Shown piece after piece: positions 28,020 through 37,392 of a stretch of DNA of 64,000 nt. Made by a program: the position numbers and the translations under genes. Under the pieces are notes generated by a model. The model saw only the letters and a program-made list of their open reading frames with translations. It did no database searches and was not told where the DNA came from. The stretch's first letter is position 1. Every line of letters starts with the position of its first letter. Source of the stretch: Sulfurifustis variabilis (GTDB lineage Bacteria > Pseudomonadota > Gammaproteobacteria > Acidiferrobacterales > Sulfurifustaceae); the NCBI RefSeq assembly GCF_002355415.1, contig NZ_AP014936.1, positions 1,302,001 through 1,366,000 on the forward strand. The letters are read 5' to 3'.

Positions 28020-28347
28020 GGGACGGGAAGGCGATCGCGCCGTGCGCAAAGAATTTCAGACGGAACTTGCAGAGTGAGGGCTAAGCCGTTGCTTTTGCTT
28101 CACGAATATTTGCGAGCCGCGAGCCGGGCATTTCGCGCTTTTGCCGACGCCTGTATAGTTCACACGGTTATACGGGGTGCCCAACAAAACATAAAGACCG
28201 GGCAGGTAGTCGCGACGGATGGGTCGTTTCCATCATCCGCCGCCGCATTGCATTTATCCGTTCCGCGCCTGCCGTCGTGGTCGAGCCGGCTGCCGAAAAG
28301 TAAAGCGAATGCGCGGTGAAAAATCCAGACACCAGACGGGGTTCCAG
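28020..28347. other. 328-nt intergenic region between divergent J-domain gene and EPS export gene
   Basis: Apart from the sigma-54-type element at 28078, I see no gene or strong hairpin here. If that promoter is used, the export gene has a leader of about 240 nt, including a weak TATAGT-like element at 28157-28162. A longer in-frame start for the export gene at 28309 falls inside this region. Confidence 0.5.
28078..28093 (+). promoter_or_regulatory. Second sigma-54-type promoter, upstream of the EPS export operon
   Basis: GGGCTAAGCCGTTGCT has GG (28079-28080), exactly 10 bases, then GC (28091-28092) within TTGCT. The GGC and TTGCT blocks match the consensus, while the middle ACG does not. 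The predicted start is near 28104. It is weaker than the element at 25598, but it has the same geometry at the only other internal EPS promoter region. Confidence 0.5.
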
Positions 28348-28974
28348 ATGTTGACGTTACGTATCGGGCTGCTCGCCGCGGTCCTGCTTGCGCTTGCCGC
28401 CTGCGCTTCCAACCGGGTCGAGGAATTCCAGAAGACGGCGCAGAACTTTGTCCCGGCCGTAGAGGGCCAGTACAAGATCGGCGTCGACGATCGCCTGCAG
28501 GTCAGCGTCTGGCGTAACCCGGAGCTGTCGGTGACCGTGCCAGTGCGCCCCGACGGCATGATCTCGGTCCCGCTGATCGGCGACGTCCAGGCCGGCGGAC
28601 GGACCCCGACACAGGTGGCCGAGTCGATCCGGCAGAAGCTCAGCACCTATATTCGCGATCCGAGCGTGGCCGTCATTCTCACGGATCTGCGTAGCCACGA
28701 GTTCCTGTCGCGCGTCAGGGTGACCGGTGCGGTCCGTGCCCCGCGGTCGATGCCGTTCCGCCAGGGCATGACCGTCCTCGACGCGGTGCTCGAGGCGGGC
28801 GGCGTCAACGACTTCGCCGCGGCGAACCGCGCAAAGCTCTACCGCAAGAAGAACGGGCAGCAGACCGAGGTGCTCGACGTCGATCTCGGCGACATCCTGA
28901 ACAAAGGCCGACTGGACACCAATGTGCTGCTGATTCCCGGGGACGTGATCACGGTCCCCGAACGCCTCTTCTAG
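28348..28974 (+). CDS. Polysaccharide export lipoprotein (Wza-like, exosortase-locus type)
   Basis: A 208-residue secreted lipoprotein with lipobox LAAC (residues about 14-17). The Poly_export domain follows (YKIGVDDRLQVSVWRNPEL, then PLIGDVQAGGRTP), and then one SLBB-type segment (RVRVTGAVRAPRSMPF, ending LLIPGDVITVPE). It corresponds to the short export proteins of exosortase-associated loci (TIGR03027 type) and should form part of the outer-membrane exit channel. The ATG at 28348 follows GGGG. A longer start at 28309 would precede a normal lipoprotein signal and is less likely. Confidence 0.9.
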   Translation: MLTLRIGLLAAVLLALAACASNRVEEFQKTAQNFVPAVEGQYKIGVDDRLQVSVWRNPELSVTVPVRPDGMISVPLIGDVQAGGRTPTQVAESIRQKLSTYIRDPSVAVILTDLRSHEFLSRVRVTGAVRAPRSMPFRQGMTVLDAVLEAGGVNDFAAANRAKLYRKKNGQQTEVLDVDLGDILNKGRLDTNVLLIPGDVITVPERLF

Positions 28975-28983
28975 GGAGCGACG

Positions 28984-30522
28984 ATGCTTTTCCTGCCCGA
29001 GCACCTGACCCGCATCTTCGTCAACGAGGCGTTTCGCCACCGGCGCGCCATGGTGGCGATGTTCGTGGTGATCTCCGTCACGCTGCTGCTCGTCGGCCTC
29101 GTGTGGCCGAAGGGATACTCGGCGTACACGACCATCCTCGTGGACGAAAAGAACATCATTCAGCCGCTGATGCAGGGGGCGGCGGTCACGACCGAGGTCG
29201 CCGACCGGTCGCGACTCGCCCGGGAGATCATCTTCGGCCGGAAGATCATGAATCAGGTCCTGTCCGAGACGGGCTGGCTGGAAAGCGAACCGGCGCCCGA
29301 CGAGCAGGAGCGGTTGCTCAAGAGAGTGATGCGAAAGACCTCGATCACGAACCTCGGACGTAATCTCATCAAGATCGAGTACCGTGACGACGATCCCGAA
29401 CGGGCCTACATGACGACCAAGCGATTCGCGGATCTCTTCATCTCCGAAAGCCTCGACGCGAAATCGAACGAGAGCCAGGCGGCCTTCGACTTCATCGACA
29501 AGCAGGTCCAGGAATACCACGAGAAGCTTGCGCGCGCGGAGCAGGCGCTCAAGGAGTTCCGCTCGGAGAATCTCGACGCCCAGCCGGGCGCGGACGCGGA
29601 CATCAGCACCCGACTCAATACCCTGCAGAGCCGGATCGAGGAGGCGACGCAGGAGCTGCGCGAGACCGAAATCAAGAAACAGTCCCTCGAGCGCCAGCTT
29701 TCGGGCGAGGCCGAGGTGGTCTCGGCCGTCTCGCGCGAGAACCAGTACCGGGCGCGGATCGCCGAGCTCTATTCGCAGCTCGAGACGTTGCGCCTCAGCT
29801 ACCACGACACGTACCCGGACATCGTACGGCTGCGGCACCAGATCGACGACCTGAACCAGGCGATCGCCGAGGAACGGCAGCGGCGCGAGCAGGCACGGCA
29901 GACGGGGCGCGCCACGATCGACGAGACCGTCATCAACAACCCGATGTACCAGCAGCTGCGGCGGGAGCTTTCCGCCACGCAGATCCAGGTCGATACGCTC
30001 CACGCCCGCATCGCGGAGGCCAAGCGCCAGATGCAGGCGGAGCTGGAGCGCGGCAAGCGCATGCAGGGCGGCGCGGCCACACTGGCGGAGCTGACCCGCG
30101 ATTACCAGGTGAACCGCGAGATCTACCAGGACCTGCTGAAGCGCCGCGAGAACGCCCGCGTGTCCATGAATCTCGACCGCGAGAACCAGGGCCTGACGTT
30201 CAAGATTCAGGAGCCGGCGGTCCTGCCGCTTCAGCCGAGCGGGCTGCGGTTCTGGCATTTCGTCCTCGGCGGCCTGATCCTCGGGATCGCCATTCCGATC
30301 GGCCTGCTGTACGCGAAGCTTCACTTCGACCCGCGCGTGCGCGTCGCCGCCGTGCTGGCCGACCGTTACAAACTTCCCGTGCTCGCGACCGTGCCGCAGC
30401 TGTGGTCGCCGCGCGAGGCCACCCTCGCACGTCGCGACGTGTACGGGCTGGCGACCGTCCTGCTTCTGACCGTCGCCAGCATCGGCGCCGTCGTTACCCT
30501 GCGACTCCTGAAGATGGTGTGA
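28984..30522 (+). CDS. Polysaccharide chain-length determinant (Wzc/GumC-like, no kinase domain)
   Basis: A 512-residue inner-membrane protein with a Wzz domain. Helix one is at about 20-40 and helix two at about 420-440, with a long periplasmic coiled-coil stretch between (about 165-390, rich in Glu/Arg/Gln). A third hydrophobic segment lies near the C-terminus (about 488-506). A PxxP-like LPLQPSGLRFW precedes the second helix. It corresponds to TIGR03007-type proteins of exosortase EPS loci. The kinase domain is separate and encoded by the next gene, 4 nt downstream. The ATG at 28984 follows AGGGAG. Confidence 0.9.
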   Translation: MLFLPEHLTRIFVNEAFRHRRAMVAMFVVISVTLLLVGLVWPKGYSAYTTILVDEKNIIQPLMQGAAVTTEVADRSRLAREIIFGRKIMNQVLSETGWLESEPAPDEQERLLKRVMRKTSITNLGRNLIKIEYRDDDPERAYMTTKRFADLFISESLDAKSNESQAAFDFIDKQVQEYHEKLARAEQALKEFRSENLDAQPGADADISTRLNTLQSRIEEATQELRETEIKKQSLERQLSGEAEVVSAVSRENQYRARIAELYSQLETLRLSYHDTYPDIVRLRHQIDDLNQAIAEERQRREQARQTGRATIDETVINNPMYQQLRRELSATQIQVDTLHARIAEAKRQMQAELERGKRMQGGAATLAELTRDYQVNREIYQDLLKRRENARVSMNLDRENQGLTFKIQEPAVLPLQPSGLRFWHFVLGGLILGIAIPIGLLYAKLHFDPRVRVAAVLADRYKLPVLATVPQLWSPREATLARRDVYGLATVLLLTVASIGAVVTLRLLKMV

Positions 30523-30526
30523 CGCG

Positions 30527-31381
30527 ATGAGCAAGATCGAAAAGGCATTGAGCCGGTCGTTGAGCGAGCGCCACCTCGCTCTCGTCCCGACCGGCGGGCC
30601 GGCCGCAAAGGCATCCGAACGGCGAGATCTCGTGGCCGCACCTTCCGAGCTGGAGGCGCGGGCGCGGTCGAGCGCCGCCATTGCGTTGATGCGCGAGCCG
30701 AAAGTGCGAGGCAGGAACGAGCTTGCGGAAGCCAGGATCATCTTTCCCGAGATGGGCGAGAGTCCGACGGTAAAGGCGTTCCGCGAGATCCGAACGAAGA
30801 TCCTGCAGAAGACGGCGGGCAACAACTGCGTCGTGATGATCACGGCGGTCAGGGGACAGAGCGGAACGACGTTCGTGGCCCTCAACCTGAGCGCCGCCTT
30901 CGCCTTCGACGTGGGCAAGACCGCCCTCCTGATCGACTGCAACCTGAGAAACCCGCGGCTGCATCGTCTCTTCACCGGCGAGGAGATGGTGGGACTCACC
31001 GATTATCTGGAGAACCCGGAGCTGGACCTCGCGGAGATCATCCACGCGGTGGGAATCGAACGTCTGCGCGTCATTCCCGCCGGCGGCCGGCGCGAGACGC
31101 CGGCGGAGTACTTCACCTCGATCAAGATGAAGCGGCTGCTCGACGATATCCGCGGGCGTTACCCGGAACGATTCATCATCCTCGATTCCCCGCCCATGAC
31201 GGAATCCGCCGACACGCAGATTCTGTCGGATCTCTGCGACTACGTCGTCCTGGTCGTGCCGTACGGCGAAGTGACGCGCTCGCAGATCGACGCCTGCGTG
31301 AAAGGCATCGATCGGAACAAGTTGCTGGGTGTGGTGTTCAACAACGAGCCGCAGTTCCCGAAATTCGGCCGCAAACGCTGA
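30527..31381 (+). CDS. CpsD/BY-kinase-like protein with altered ATP-binding residues (probable pseudokinase)
   Basis: A 284-residue cytosolic protein colinear with the tyrosine autokinases of exosortase EPS loci (TIGR03018-like). The P-loop reads GQSGTTFVALNLS (110-122): by alignment with Wzc-type SGKTF, the catalytic Lys is Thr114. Walker A' is LLIDCNLRNP, so the second acidic residue is Asn139. Walker B FIILDSPPM is kept. The C-terminus (PKFGRKR) has no tyrosine cluster. Together this predicts little or no kinase activity, leaving a possible structural role with the chain-length determinant just upstream. I infer loss of activity; ATP binding was not tested. Confidence 0.85.
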   Translation: MSKIEKALSRSLSERHLALVPTGGPAAKASERRDLVAAPSELEARARSSAAIALMREPKVRGRNELAEARIIFPEMGESPTVKAFREIRTKILQKTAGNNCVVMITAVRGQSGTTFVALNLSAAFAFDVGKTALLIDCNLRNPRLHRLFTGEEMVGLTDYLENPELDLAEIIHAVGIERLRVIPAGGRRETPAEYFTSIKMKRLLDDIRGRYPERFIILDSPPMTESADTQILSDLCDYVVLVVPYGEVTRSQIDACVKGIDRNKLLGVVFNNEPQFPKFGRKR

Positions 31382-31442
31382 GTCGTAGCCACGGCGCGCG
31401 ACATCCAGACGGCAAAGAACGACGCGGGAACATGCAGATGAA

Positions 31443-31454
31443 GGGGGGGGGGGG
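31443..31454 (+). repeat. Homopolymeric tract of 12 G at the 5' end of the EPS outer-membrane protein gene
   Basis: Twelve consecutive G follow ATGCAGATGAA (31432-31442). From the ATGs at 31432/31438 the reading frame is one base out of phase with the outer-membrane protein frame. With 13 (or 10) G it would read M-K-G-G-G-G-R-V-R-S-A-G and continue straight into the hydrophobic signal core. Such tracts are the usual substrate of slipped-strand phase variation. A homopolymer sequencing error is the main alternative. Confidence 0.85.
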
Positions 31455-31478
31455 CGAGTCCGATCTGCCGGTGCGCTC

Positions 31479-32768
31479 GTGTTGCTCTGCGCGGCGGCAC
31501 CGTCCGCGCATGCCGCGCAGGCGGCCTACGGCTTCGGTTACATCAGCGAGTACAGCTCCAACATCGAGCGTACCCCGACCGATCCCCGCAACGACTGGAT
31601 CAACTCGGTAGTCGGCGGTATCGCGTACGAGGAGAACACGGCGGATCTCGCTGCGCGCGTCAGCGGGCAGGTCGAGGCGCGGAGCTACGCGGAGAACACC
31701 TTTTCCGACGATGTGGTAGGCAACCTCGACGCGTCGGCGCTGTGGACCCTCTCTCCGCAGCGACTGACCTGGACGGTCGAAGACGCTTTCCGGATGGTCA
31801 CCCTCGATCCCGCCACCGCGACGACGCCCAGAAACGTGGCCGGCGCGAACATCTTCAATACCGGTCCCGACGCGTACCTCCGCTTCGGCCCCGTGCACAC
31901 CCTCTCGCTGGGCGGGCGCTACGGTAACGTCTACGTCGGCGACGCCGACATCGACAACAACCGTTACACGGGCATTGCCCGCTGGCTCTATCAGTCGTCC
32001 CCGCGGACCGTCTGGTCCCTGAACCTCGAGCACCTGAACGTATCGTTCGACAACGACGTCCTCAACGAGAACTTCAAGCGGGACGACGCGTACGCGCGTC
32101 TGCTCATCCGGCAGGCGCGCTCGGAGTTCACGCTGGACGCCGGCCGGTCGCGGATCGACCGCGACCGTTCGCCCGAGCTCGAAGGATCGCTCGGGCGGCT
32201 CGGGTGGCGCCGCGAGCTGTCGAGCGAGTCGAGCTTCGGTTTGTCCGCGGCCGCGGGCTACCAGGACGTCGGCGCCGCGCTGCTCGGTCTCCTGACGGGC
32301 CCCACGGCGACGGTCGCGGCCCCCGTCCCGCCGACCGGAACGGACGTGGTCACGAGCGACCTCTACTACACCCGCCAGGCGGATGTCTTCTATACCCGCC
32401 GTGGGTCCCGCTACGGCGGGACGGTCCGCGTGGTCGCGCGGGAGCTCGATTTCGAAACCACCCTCCAGGACCGCGACGAGGCGGGCGGCAGCCTGGAGCT
32501 CGGATACGTGCATTCGGCGACCACGAGCGCGACCCTTTTCGGCGATTACCTCAAGATCGACTACGCGCAGATCGTCCGCGAGGACGAGGACATCCATTAT
32601 GGCCTTCGGCTCGCGTACCTCGTGGGCCGCAACGTGTCGGTCGGGCTGGAAGGCCGCCGGATCGAACGCGCGAGCACGGACGCCGGCAGCGAGTTCGTCG
32701 ACAAGCGCGCGCTGCTCACGGTGCTGTACAGCACCGCACCCCTTTACTCGCCACTCAGCCGACGGTGA
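31479..32768 (+). CDS. EPS-locus outer-membrane protein (exosortase-system beta-barrel type), 5' end frameshifted at a poly-G tract
   Basis: The open frame from the GTG at 31479 encodes 429 residues. It starts in the middle of a signal peptide (LLCAAAPSAHA) and continues as a beta-strand-rich protein with alternating aromatic and polar residues and a YNVxxxY-like barrel pattern throughout. It matches the TIGR03016-type outer-membrane proteins of exosortase EPS loci. The true N-terminus is probably at the ATG at 31432 or 31438, with a basic n-region, but 12 G at 31443-31454 put those codons out of frame. If the tract varies, the gene switches on and off; as read here it is off or poorly exported. 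It ends 6 nt before the next start. Confidence 0.8.
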   Translation: MLLCAAAPSAHAAQAAYGFGYISEYSSNIERTPTDPRNDWINSVVGGIAYEENTADLAARVSGQVEARSYAENTFSDDVVGNLDASALWTLSPQRLTWTVEDAFRMVTLDPATATTPRNVAGANIFNTGPDAYLRFGPVHTLSLGGRYGNVYVGDADIDNNRYTGIARWLYQSSPRTVWSLNLEHLNVSFDNDVLNENFKRDDAYARLLIRQARSEFTLDAGRSRIDRDRSPELEGSLGRLGWRRELSSESSFGLSAAAGYQDVGAALLGLLTGPTATVAAPVPPTGTDVVTSDLYYTRQADVFYTRRGSRYGGTVRVVARELDFETTLQDRDEAGGSLELGYVHSATTSATLFGDYLKIDYAQIVREDEDIHYGLRLAYLVGRNVSVGLEGRRIERASTDAGSEFVDKRALLTVLYSTAPLYSPLSRR

Positions 32769-32774
32769 TCCGCC

Positions 32775-33845
32775 ATGTACCTCGAATTCTTCAAGTTGCG
32801 CGAGTTCCCCTTCCGTCTGACGCCCGACACCGAGTTCCTGTACATGAGCGACGCGCACGCGCGCGCCAAGGCGTACATGGACTACACCATCTGGAACCGC
32901 GACGGGTTCGTGGTGATCACGGGCGAGATCGGCTCGGGCAAGACCACGCTGATACAGAAGCTCCTCTCCGAGCTCGACGACAACGTGCTCGTCGCGAAGA
33001 TCTTCCAGACGCAGCTCGACGAAGTGGAGTTCCTGCAGGCCGTCCTCGTCGAGTTCGGGCTCAACCCGTTTCATGCGAAGAAGGTCGAGCTGATCGACAT
33101 GCTGAACACCTTCCTGATCGATCAGTTCCACAAGGACAAACAGCTCGTGCTCATCGTGGACGACGCCCACAACCTGAGCCCCAAAGTGCTCGAGGAGATC
33201 CGGATGCTGTCCGGTCTCGAGACGCAGAAGGAGAAGGTCCTTCACGTCATCCTGGTCGGACACCCGCAGCTCAACGAGCTCCTGGAGTCCGCGGAGATGG
33301 AGCAGCTGCTGCAGCGGGTGCGCCTGCGCTATCACATCAAGGCGCTGTCGGAGGAAGCGACGCGCGCCTACATCACGCACCGGCTGCGCGTCGCCGGGAT
33401 GGAGGAGCGCCACCTGTTCGCCGCGGAGACCTTTCCGCTGATCTACAAGTACACCGGCGGGCTTCCGCGCCTGATCAACACCCTTTGCGACACGGCGCTC
33501 GTTTGCGCCTATGCCGACGGGCAGACGGCGATCACCGGCCACGTGCTCAACAGCGCCATCGAAGAGCTCCAGTGGCTGCCGTATGCCAAGCGCGTTAACC
33601 AGCGGCGCCTGCGGCCGCCGCCCGCGGCGAACAACGAGTACCAGGAGGTGCTCAAGGACCACGCCCGGGCGCTCGTCAACGTCGGTCACCAGATGACGCG
33701 GCTGGACGCGCTGGTGCCGGCGCTCAACGCCCTCGCCGGGCGCATGGGAAACATCGAGTCGCTGCTGCGGAACATCGCATCGGCGCTCGACATGGAGCCG
33801 AAGGCAGGGAAGTCCGAGTCCAAGACGCTCGCGAAGCGCGACTGA
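32775..33845 (+). CDS. ExeA/GspA-type secretion ATPase of EPS locus
   Basis: A 356-residue AAA ATPase of the exosortase-associated class (TIGR03015). It starts with the typical MYLEFFKLREFPF. Walker A is GEIGSGKTT at 50-58, Walker B is LVLIVDDAHNLS, and the sensor region contains GGLPRLINTLCD. The C-terminal 90 residues are a predicted coiled coil with basic ends. ExeA-like proteins remodel peptidoglycan passage for secretin assembly; the role in EPS loci is unproven. The ATG at 32775 is 7 nt after the upstream gene. Confidence 0.9.
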   Translation: MYLEFFKLREFPFRLTPDTEFLYMSDAHARAKAYMDYTIWNRDGFVVITGEIGSGKTTLIQKLLSELDDNVLVAKIFQTQLDEVEFLQAVLVEFGLNPFHAKKVELIDMLNTFLIDQFHKDKQLVLIVDDAHNLSPKVLEEIRMLSGLETQKEKVLHVILVGHPQLNELLESAEMEQLLQRVRLRYHIKALSEEATRAYITHRLRVAGMEERHLFAAETFPLIYKYTGGLPRLINTLCDTALVCAYADGQTAITGHVLNSAIEELQWLPYAKRVNQRRLRPPPAANNEYQEVLKDHARALVNVGHQMTRLDALVPALNALAGRMGNIESLLRNIASALDMEPKAGKSESKTLAKRD

Positions 33846-33869: not shown

Positions 33870-35843
33870 ATGTGCGGAATTGCCGGTATTCTGAACCTGT
33901 CTCCGGGCGCGGCGCCGGAGCGTTCGCTGCTCGCCTCCATGATCGGTGCCGCGGCGCATCGCGGGCCGGACGGTTTCGGATTCTACGCCGACAGCGAGGC
34001 GGGTCTGGCGCACGCGCGCCTCAGCATCATCGATCTCGAGGGGGGAGACCAGCCGATCTCGAACGAGGACGGGACGATCCAGGTGGTCTTCAACGGCGAG
34101 ATCTTCAATTACATCGAGCTCCGCAGGGAGCTGGAGGCGGCCGGCCATCGGTTTCGCACGCATTCCGATACGGAGGTCATCGTCCACGCGTACGAGGAGT
34201 ACGGCGACGACTTCGTCCATCGGCTGAACGGACAGTTCGCGATCGCGCTCTGGGACGCGCGCTCGCACAGGCTGCTGCTCGCGCGCGACCGTACCGGCAT
34301 CCGCCCCCTCTTTTACGCGACGTGGCGCGGGCGGCTCTACTTCGCCTCCGAGATCAAATCGCTTTTCCGCGTGCCCGGGTTTCCGCGTCGGCTCGACGTC
34401 GCCGGTCTCGGAGAGATCTTCACCTACTGGACGACGCTCGAGCCCGCTACCGCCTTCGCGGGCGTCCGCGCGCTGCCCGCGGGATACCGGGCGGTGGTGT
34501 GCGGCGGCCGGCTGCAGGCGCAGAGGTACTGGGACTGGAGCTTTCCGGAGCATCCCGTCCGCGCCGATCGAAGCGAGGAGGAGTATGCGGAGGAGCTGCG
34601 GCACCTGCTGGTCGATGCCGTGCGGCTCCAGCTGCGGGCGGACGTCCCGGTCGGCGCGTATCTCAGCGGCGGCCTCGATTCGTCGATCATCACGGGCCTG
34701 ATCAAGCGGTACACGGACACGCCGCTGCGGACCTTTTCGCTCACCTTCGAGGATGCCGAGTTCGACGAGAGCCCGTACCAGCGCGATCTCGTCGCATGGC
34801 TGGGGACGACCCATACGGAGCTGCGGTGTCGCGAGGCCGATATCCGCGAGGCCTTTCCGCGCGCCGTCTGGCACGCGGAGACGCCGATCCTGCGTTCGGC
34901 GCCGGCCCCGCTGATGCTGCTTTCGGGCGCGGTGCACGCCGCCGGTTACAAGGTCGTGCTGACGGGGGAGGGCGCCGACGAGGTCTTCGGCGGCTATGAT
35001 CTGTTCCGCGAGGCGAAGGTGCGCCGTTTCTGGGCGCGGGCACCGCAGTCGCGGTGGCGCGCGTCTCTGCTCGGCCGGCTCTATCCGTACCTCGCGCACT
35101 CGCCGAGCTCGGTCCGCGTCGCCCGGGAGGCGTTCTTCCGCGAAGGGCTCGACCTGGCCGATCGCCCGTACTTCGCGCATATCCCGCGGTGGTCCACGAC
35201 CCGGCGTCTGTGGCGGTTCCTCCACCCGGACGTGCGGCAGACCCTGGCGGGGTTCGACCCGCACGCGGCGATCGGTCGTATCCTGCCTCCCGGGATCGAT
35301 CGCTGGCCTCCGCTCGGGCGCGATCAGTACGTCGAAGCGCATACGCTGCTGAGCGGATACCTCTTGAGCTCGCAGGGCGACCGCATGGCGATGGCGAACT
35401 CGGTCGAAGGGCGGTTTCCGTTCCTCGATCACCGGGTGATCGAATTCGCGAACCGTTTGCCGCCATCCTTCAAGATCCGCGGGCTGGCCGAGAAGCACAT
35501 CCTCAAGCGCGCGGCCGGGGATCTCTTGCCCGCGAGCGTGCGCGAACGACCCAAGCAGCCGTACCGCGCGCCCGACAGTCAGAGCTTCTTCCAGAACGGC
35601 CGCCCGGCGGAGTACGTGGCAGCGCTCTTCGCCGAGAGCCGGCTGCGGGAGTCGGGTCTGTTCGACGCCGGCGCCGTGCGCAAGCTCTACGAAAAGTGCC
35701 GGGCCGGGCGCGCCATCGGATTCGGCGACAACATGGCCTTCGTCGGCATTCTTTCGACGCTGCTCGTGGACGAGCACTTCGTACGGCGCTTCGCCGAGCC
35801 GCCCGCCCAGCCGCAGGCGACGGCCGCGGCCGGAAGTTTCTGA
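33870..35843 (+). CDS. Asparagine synthase-like glutamine amidotransferase of EPS locus
   Basis: The 657-residue product starts MCGIAG, so Cys2 is the N-terminal nucleophile of a class II glutaminase. The glutaminase domain continues with HRGPDG, VVFNGEIFNY and HSDTEV. The synthetase domain has the PP-loop SGGLDSS at 266-272 and later GEGADEVFGGY. The reaction would be ATP-dependent amidation of a carboxylate using glutamine. In exosortase EPS loci such proteins are called amidotransferases, and they sit beside acyl-CoA ligase and ACP genes, as here (ligase starts 10 nt downstream). The acceptor is unknown; amidation of an uronic acid or an ACP-bound acid are both possible. Confidence 0.9.
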   Translation: MCGIAGILNLSPGAAPERSLLASMIGAAAHRGPDGFGFYADSEAGLAHARLSIIDLEGGDQPISNEDGTIQVVFNGEIFNYIELRRELEAAGHRFRTHSDTEVIVHAYEEYGDDFVHRLNGQFAIALWDARSHRLLLARDRTGIRPLFYATWRGRLYFASEIKSLFRVPGFPRRLDVAGLGEIFTYWTTLEPATAFAGVRALPAGYRAVVCGGRLQAQRYWDWSFPEHPVRADRSEEEYAEELRHLLVDAVRLQLRADVPVGAYLSGGLDSSIITGLIKRYTDTPLRTFSLTFEDAEFDESPYQRDLVAWLGTTHTELRCREADIREAFPRAVWHAETPILRSAPAPLMLLSGAVHAAGYKVVLTGEGADEVFGGYDLFREAKVRRFWARAPQSRWRASLLGRLYPYLAHSPSSVRVAREAFFREGLDLADRPYFAHIPRWSTTRRLWRFLHPDVRQTLAGFDPHAAIGRILPPGIDRWPPLGRDQYVEAHTLLSGYLLSSQGDRMAMANSVEGRFPFLDHRVIEFANRLPPSFKIRGLAEKHILKRAAGDLLPASVRERPKQPYRAPDSQSFFQNGRPAEYVAALFAESRLRESGLFDAGAVRKLYEKCRAGRAIGFGDNMAFVGILSTLLVDEHFVRRFAEPPAQPQATAAAGSF

Positions 35844-35853
35844 GGAGCGGCGC

Positions 35854-37392
35854 ATGCTGGTGCATCGCCTTCTCGAGCGTACGCTCGAAACGCATGCCGG
35901 CAAGACCGCGCTCGTGTGCGGCGCGGAGCGCCACACCTATGCGGAGGTCGGCGAGGCGGTGGCGCGGCTCGCGGCGTTTCTGCAACGCTCCGGCGTGCGA
36001 CGCGGCGACCGCGTCGTGCTGTTTCTCGAGAACGGCTTCGAGGCGGTGGTCGCCATCTACGCGGTGCTGACGATCGGCGCCGTGTTCATGCCCGTCAACC
36101 CCCTCACGAAACGGGAGAAGCTCGCCTACCTCTTCGCCGACGCCCGACCGACCGCGTTGATCGCCGCCCGTCATCTTCGGGATGCCTTCGAGTACGCGCT
36201 GTCGCGGAACGAGAGCGTGCACACGTGCATCGTCGCGGGCGAGGGGAACGGTCACGCTACCGCGGCCGGCCGGCCGATGATCCCGTTCGGCGAAGTGCTC
36301 GCGTCGCCCGCCCCGGAACCGGTCCATCCCGGCACGATCGACCAGGATCTCGCCGCGATCATCTATACCTCTGGCTCCACGGGCGACCCCAAGGGGGTGA
36401 TGCTGACGCACCATAATATGGTGTCGGCGGCGGAATCGGTGCTCGCCTACCTCCCCCTGCGGGAAAGCGACGTGATCTTTTGTGTCCTGCCGCTGGCTTT
36501 CGGCTACGGTCTGTATCACGTCGTCATGGGCTTCACGCTGGGGGCGACCGTCGTGCTCGAGCCGTCGTTCGCCTTTCCGGTCAAGACACTCGAAGCCATG
36601 TCGCGCGAGCGAGCCACCGTCTTCCCCGGCGTTCCCACGATCTTCGCCACGCTGCTGAACCTGAGCGTGTTTCCGCAGTACGACCTGCGCAGCCTGCGCA
36701 TCGTGACCAACGCCGGCGCGGCGCTCTCCGTGCAGCACATCGAGGCCATACGCCGGCTGCTGCCCCACGCCCGCCTCTATTCGATGTACGGCCAGACGGA
36801 GTGCAAGCGGGCGTCGTACCTCCCGCCGGAGGAGATCGACCGCCGGCCGACCAGCGTCGGCCGGGGCATGCCGAATCAGGAGCACTGGCTGGTCGACGAA
36901 TCGGGCAACCGGCTTCCGAACGGGAGCCAGGGCGAGCTCGTCGTGCGCGGCAGCCACGTGATGCGCGGCTACTGGGAGAAGCCGGAAGAGACCGCGCGAA
37001 AGCTGCGCCCCGGTCCGTATCCGGGCGAGAGCGTGCTTTTTACGGGCGACATTTTCCGGACCGACGCCGACGGATATCTCTACTTCGTCTGCCGCAAGGA
37101 CGACATGATCAAGAGTCGCGGTGAGATGGTCAGCCCGCGCGAAGTCGAAAACGCGCTCTACGCGCTCGACGGGGTGCTCGAGGCCGCGGTGATCGGCGTG
37201 CCGGACGACATGCTCGGTGCCGCCGTGAAGGCGTTTCTGGTCCTCAAGCCGGGTTACCGCTACACGGAGAGGGAAGTCGTCCGGCACTGCCTCGGGCGCC
37301 TGGAAAGCTTCATGGCGCCGAAGCAGGTCGTGTTCGCCGACTGCCTGCCCAAGACCGACAACGGCAAGATCCGCAAGACCGAGCTGGCGTGA
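35854..37392 (+). CDS. Acyl-CoA ligase/AMP-dependent synthetase of EPS locus
   Basis: A 512-residue ANL-superfamily adenylating enzyme. Its P-loop is YTSGSTGDPKG at 171-181, followed by SMYGQTEC (A5), TGDIFRTDADGY (A7) and the catalytic Lys in KTDNGKIRKTEL near the C-terminus. It belongs to the TIGR03098 type of exosortase loci. It would activate a carboxylic acid as acyl-AMP and load it on the carrier protein encoded next, 37 nt downstream. The acid is not identifiable by inspection. The ATG at 35854 follows GAGGAGCGGCGC. Confidence 0.9.
   Translation: MLVHRLLERTLETHAGKTALVCGAERHTYAEVGEAVARLAAFLQRSGVRRGDRVVLFLENGFEAVVAIYAVLTIGAVFMPVNPLTKREKLAYLFADARPTALIAARHLRDAFEYALSRNESVHTCIVAGEGNGHATAAGRPMIPFGEVLASPAPEPVHPGTIDQDLAAIIYTSGSTGDPKGVMLTHHNMVSAAESVLAYLPLRESDVIFCVLPLAFGYGLYHVVMGFTLGATVVLEPSFAFPVKTLEAMSRERATVFPGVPTIFATLLNLSVFPQYDLRSLRIVTNAGAALSVQHIEAIRRLLPHARLYSMYGQTECKRASYLPPEEIDRRPTSVGRGMPNQEHWLVDESGNRLPNGSQGELVVRGSHVMRGYWEKPEETARKLRPGPYPGESVLFTGDIFRTDADGYLYFVCRKDDMIKSRGEMVSPREVENALYALDGVLEAAVIGVPDDMLGAAVKAFLVLKPGYRYTEREVVRHCLGRLESFMAPKQVVFADCLPKTDNGKIRKTELA

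Follow-up and report, generated by a model that had tools for sequence, protein, structure and literature searches.

Sulfurifustis variabilis skN76T (AP014936) is a free-living autotroph that oxidises sulfur and was isolated from a lake in Japan (PMC5024460). Its genome carries a tract of twelve G at the very start of a gene for an outer-membrane beta-barrel protein, inside an XrtA/PEP-CTERM exopolysaccharide cluster. The best explanation of this G12 tract is, in our view, a slipped-strand phase-variation (contingency) switch, and we hold it with moderate confidence. A random on/off switch is probable because the order to which the organism belongs appears to be without mismatch repair and because, in its relatives, other surface genes begin with comparable runs. 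All positions given below refer to the analysed stretch of 64,000 nucleotides (hereafter the window), unless stated otherwise.

The G12 tract occupies positions 31443-31454 of the plus strand, exactly where an earlier inspection of the bare letters (the sequence-only reading) had placed it, and is preceded by two ATGs at 31432 and 31438 that are in frame with each other. The second of these is the likelier start, since it has GGGA at a short distance upstream (Table 1). Frame translation confirmed that the barrel frame is out of register with both ATGs: at 12 G they lead into MQMKGGGGESDLPVRSCC... and meet a stop once 59 codons have been read. If the tract is 10, 13 or 16 G long, the ATG frame reads MQMKGGG(G)RVRSAGALVLLCAAAPSAHA/AQ... 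and continues into the barrel, giving a protein of 444-446 amino acids. The proposal that one G more or two G less restores a signal peptide running into the barrel was thereby confirmed, for 13 and 10 G. Tracts of 11 or 14 G lead into the third frame, which is also dead. That is, tract length modulo three sets whether an intact barrel protein is encoded, as is expected of a slipped-strand phase-variable locus. Between the stop at 31386 and the tract, the barrel frame contains no ATG, GTG, TTG or CTG. The first usual start in this frame is GTG 31479, which lies within the hydrophobic core with no basic residues ahead of it, and it had indeed been claimed that at 12 G the barrel could be started only inside that core. 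Because the frame is intact over 429 codons from this GTG, shows strong GC3 and encodes a protein 42-48% identical to family members, the barrel gene does not look like a decayed pseudogene.

Table 1. Features of the tract, the barrel gene and the surrounding cluster (positions in the window)
Feature	Position	Strand	Remark
Short OPX export protein (XrtA/PEP-CTERM), Poly_export + SLBB	28219..28974	+	domain-bearing part 28348-28971
XrtA system polysaccharide chain length determinant	28984..30522	+	TIGR03007 over cut-off
XrtA-associated tyrosine autokinase	30527..31381	+	ends 50 bp before the ATG
First ATG, out of the barrel frame at 12 G	31432..31434	+	
Dead-end frame of 59 codons at 12 G, stop included	31432..31611	+	
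Second ATG, same frame as the first	31438..31440	+	GGGA 8 nt upstream
G12 homopolymer, proposed slippage site, signal-peptide n-region	31443..31454	+	the genome has just one other G/C run of at least 9
Remaining signal peptide in the barrel frame, RVRSAGALVLLCAAAPSAHA/AQA	31455..31523	+	relatives have homologous signal peptides, in frame
TIGR03016-like outer-membrane beta-barrel, open frame	31479..32768	+	429 codons from GTG
XrtA-associated ATPase	32775..33845	+	begins 6 bp past the barrel stop
XrtA-type amidotransferase and acyl-CoA ligase, downstream cluster genes	33870..37392	+	

Family relatives with readable start regions encode a basic n-region followed by a hydrophobic core, in frame. 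A signal peptide of this build had been postulated for the S. variabilis gene, with the reservation that orthologues might start downstream of the tract and lack one; the relatives instead carry homologous in-frame signal peptides. None of these readable start regions contains a G tract, nor do they encode poly-Gly. In the start-region alignment, however, two relatives (L011 and L014) have G5 at the position aligned to G12, and this shorter run is a plausible seed of the tract.

Among curated families, the barrel frame was best matched by TIGR03016, an XrtA/PEP-CTERM outer-membrane protein found at the same cluster position. Since the score was 58.4 bits against a curated cut-off of 90.85 bits, with profile positions 11-180 alone aligning, we label the protein TIGR03016-like only. 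The match to the Pfam beta-barrel porin family PF10082 was weak, and a single-protein query against the genome contigs found no relative of the barrel. An AlphaFold model (22 relatives aligned, pLDDT 86, pTM 0.80) comprised 20 strands, and Foldseek and VIA-align placed it among outer-membrane barrels (best VIA-align Z 16.7), in agreement with the original assignment to this class. The alginate exporter AlgE was among the structural matches (Z about 15). These model-based matches point to a fold, not to a function.

The genes neighbouring the barrel gene are XrtA/PEP-CTERM exopolysaccharide genes, including a glycosylphosphotransferase and several glycosyltransferases, and bear out the exopolysaccharide context suggested by the sequence-only reading. 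One of the cluster genes encodes, from ATG 28348, a short OPX protein of 208 amino acids with Poly_export and SLBB only and without an outer-membrane-spanning domain. Short OPX proteins of Myxococcus, which likewise have no outer-membrane domain, pair with a barrel, the loss of which impairs polymer production (PMC9601211, PMC9603273). The pairs EpsY/EpsX and WzaX/WzpX show the same combination of a short OPX protein and a signal-peptide-bearing outer-membrane barrel in one polysaccharide cluster, and by analogy with Myxococcus the short OPX protein is the likely partner of the barrel in S. variabilis. The AlgE match is a further likeness to this composite OPX/beta-barrel translocon. In contrast, our model has 20 strands instead of 18, and the OPX and barrel genes are two genes apart in an XrtA/PEP-CTERM cluster; PEP-CTERM is mentioned in neither of the two Myxococcus papers. 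We infer the exopolysaccharide role of TIGR03016-type barrels from these relatives of a different family. Since the protein models as an outer-membrane barrel within an XrtA exopolysaccharide cluster, its loss would plausibly block polysaccharide export. The XrtA-associated ATPase gene might be affected as well through translational coupling or polarity, because it follows the barrel stop so closely.

G12 is exceptional for this genome. In the window, the number of G/C runs drops about 5-fold per added base, from 8 runs of 6 to a single run of 7, and the next run has length 12, against an expectation of 0.014 G/C runs of at least 12 per window under a first-order model. Pattern searches of the whole genome (a single contig of 3,958,814 bp) found just five G/C runs of at least 8, namely the G12 described here, an apparently intergenic G22 and, in REP-like intergenic DNA, three runs of length 8; of these, only G12 was found within a gene. 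The repeat tract is thus far beyond chance length, again as expected of a slipped-strand phase-variable locus. Glycine codon use does not explain it: GGG makes up 26% of the Gly codons in the genes of the window and GGGGGG encodes 1 of 62 Gly-Gly pairs, and since relatives have no poly-Gly either, the protein has no need of the tract. The G22 run (1260205-1260226 of the genome contig, G000:C1; 8206-8227 of L096) is the longest tract in the genome. It lies several hundred bases from likely genes, without a clear target, and was dropped as a candidate second switch.

Homopolymers slip more often in the absence of mismatch repair, which the order Acidiferrobacterales seems to have lost. In the S. 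variabilis genome, MutS1 (TIGR01070) gave no match, and MutL and NucS were undetected. Across 57 genomes of the order, MutS1 exceeded the cut-off in two, MutL (TIGR00585) only in the same two, and NucS in none, while control genomes gave positive matches. In the two exceptions (G008 and G009), the MutS1 and MutL genes adjoin; regain or contamination is possible there. By comparison, 208 of the 232 genomes in a sample of the class had MutS1 above the cut-off, and most of those without it are small genomes. Restricted to good-quality genomes, MutS1 was found in 1 of 34 for the order versus 208 of 229 for the class (Fisher P about 1e-26, a value that is too small since the genomes are phylogenetically related, although the loss as such is clear).

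We searched for long G/C runs across the family and the order, and the parallels found were classified by hand after the fact. Some of them come from drafts assembled from metagenomes, where a poly-G run can be artefactual, whereas the cases in genome G036 belong to a single-contig assembly. We discarded many G9+ tracts of relatives because they were contig-end artefacts, lay in leaders or were intergenic. In Sulfuricaulis (G011), the outer-membrane usher of a chaperone-usher operon has G12 in its signal-peptide n-region, in frame; its start is a GTG overlapping the end of the chaperone gene (L097, G011:C18, minus strand, reverse-complement position ~2131-2142). A GT4 glycosyltransferase of genus g14 begins MVKF-G13 in frame in one genome (G047, L143/L185), and its 73%-identical orthologue in another (G049, L145/L183) begins MDKL-G12 out of frame. 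It is only between these GT4 orthologues, that is, in another gene and between related species, that variation in tract length was seen. Short EAL-domain genes of g14 carry tracts in an N-terminal linker, one in frame and three out, and several orthologues are without a tract. G036 (L153/L139, L136) has C22 in frame in one EAL gene and C11 out of frame in a paralogue, and the EAL genes of G050 (C14+G26; L159/L144) and G052 (G23; L105) are both out of frame. By hand count, 7 of ~16 tracts of at least 12 in the order lie at gene starts (binomial P about 0.003 with an assumed 13.5%), a post hoc figure that we do not rely on. A run of G48 also occurs in G036 (L138, L139), as do a G10 and a G11 that lie ~90 bp from each other and share the same 30 bases on their left side.

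Alternative explanations concern both the length of the tract and its origin; the chief ones are a miscount in an always-ON gene and neutral or laboratory drift, and since the alternatives overlap, our confidences do not sum to one. The genome was assembled with HGAP from PacBio RS II P6-C4 reads only (210x), without short-read polishing, and a comparable Streptomyces genome (P6-C4, HGAP3, 262x) had to be corrected at 205 indels with the help of short reads, almost all of them in G/C homopolymers (PMC4832174). Because such a pipeline errs at G/C homopolymers, the recorded 'OFF' state may be a miscount by a base or more. A true tract of 13 G (or 10), with the gene ON in the type strain and the frameshift a consensus error, is possible, though we think it unlikely. 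All seven G/C runs of length 6-7 in genes of the window keep their frames open, so for runs of this size the consensus is reliable. Moreover, a miscount accounts for the frame, but not for a tract of 10-13 G, which is slip-prone regardless. The claim of a switch is therefore independent of whether the true length is 12 or 13, whereas the claim that this isolate is OFF depends on it. We give very little credence to a protein that begins at GTG 31479, with G12 in an untranslated leader. This codon is of an accepted start type and the first in the barrel frame, but a start there would do away with the basic n-region and cut the hydrophobic core in half, with no basic residue left and a peak 9-mer hydropathy of 1.67 versus 2.81 with the upstream part. 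In full-length family relatives the basic n-region lies upstream of this position, and we rejected the GTG as the true start for want of an n-region.

It is also conceivable that the G5 seed drifted to G12 without mismatch repair and that OFF cells were tolerated or favoured in pure culture, with no selected switch involved. Exopolysaccharide is dispensable in pure culture and the type strain has been kept in culture; MutS and MutL are absent clade-wide; and relatives have G5 at the homologous site, the tract itself not being conserved. Yet the genes of this genome are otherwise without long G/C runs, so free drift does not generally make them, and envelope and EAL genes of relatives repeatedly have similar tracts close to their starts. 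We consider this neutral course doubtful. Long homopolymers provoke slippage, and ribosomal or RNA-polymerase slippage on G12 could give some in-frame protein at every length; such graded expression appears improbable to us.

In the phase-variation switch that we favour, replication slippage would add or delete G's in the tract. At 10, 13 or 16 G, translation from ATG 31432 or 31438 would make the barrel with an entire Sec signal peptide in front, and the barrel and the short OPX protein of the cluster would pass XrtA-type exopolysaccharide across the outer membrane. Other lengths would yield a dead-end peptide of 59 or about 165 residues; the barrel would be absent, export would be lost and, perhaps, expression of the downstream genes as well through polarity. 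The loss of mismatch repair in the clade would make slippage frequent. Slippage rate, reversibility, the export role of the barrel and the phenotype are all points that we infer.

The same arrangement, a long G tract in the 5' coding region of an outer-membrane gene with length modulo three setting the frame, is known from the homopolymer phase variation of Neisseria, Helicobacter and Campylobacter (PMC11868660, PMC2831843). Unlike these systems, the host of the present tract is a free-living, GC-rich chemolithotroph of a clade without MutS and MutL, and the switch is a candidate one. The sequence-only reading had argued from host association; since S. variabilis is a lake chemolithotroph, this part found no support and was dropped. 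The reading had also known of no report for this barrel family, and in the open-licence papers that we searched, we found no exosortase/PEP-CTERM polysaccharide system reported as phase-variable. The mechanism is classical and its setting is new: a free-living lineage lacking mismatch repair and an exopolysaccharide-export barrel. The EAL tracts of relatives would further tie switching to c-di-GMP, as with the c-di-GMP phosphodiesterases pdcB and pdcC of Clostridioides difficile (PMC9286219); switching there is by site-specific inversion, whereas the relatives have homopolymer tracts, in EAL genes located in their genomes and not in the window.

For PacBio-only assemblies of GC-rich genomes, tract-bearing genes of this kind can be misjudged by annotation. 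If the switch is real, simple genetics could tell whether the export of XrtA exopolysaccharide is gated by a barrel that partners an OPX protein. More tentatively, and with less than even confidence, we propose that Acidiferrobacterales, free-living and having lost MutS and MutL, use long 5' G/C tracts to switch biofilm and surface traits by phase variation, with no animal host involved, in exopolysaccharide-export, glycosyltransferase, usher and c-di-GMP phosphodiesterase genes. Homopolymer phase variation is chiefly known from host-associated bacteria and has been explained by immune evasion. If our reading of the G12 tract holds true, bet-hedging over polymer or biofilm alone can favour homopolymer switches, here in a lake sulfur oxidiser of a clade without mismatch repair.
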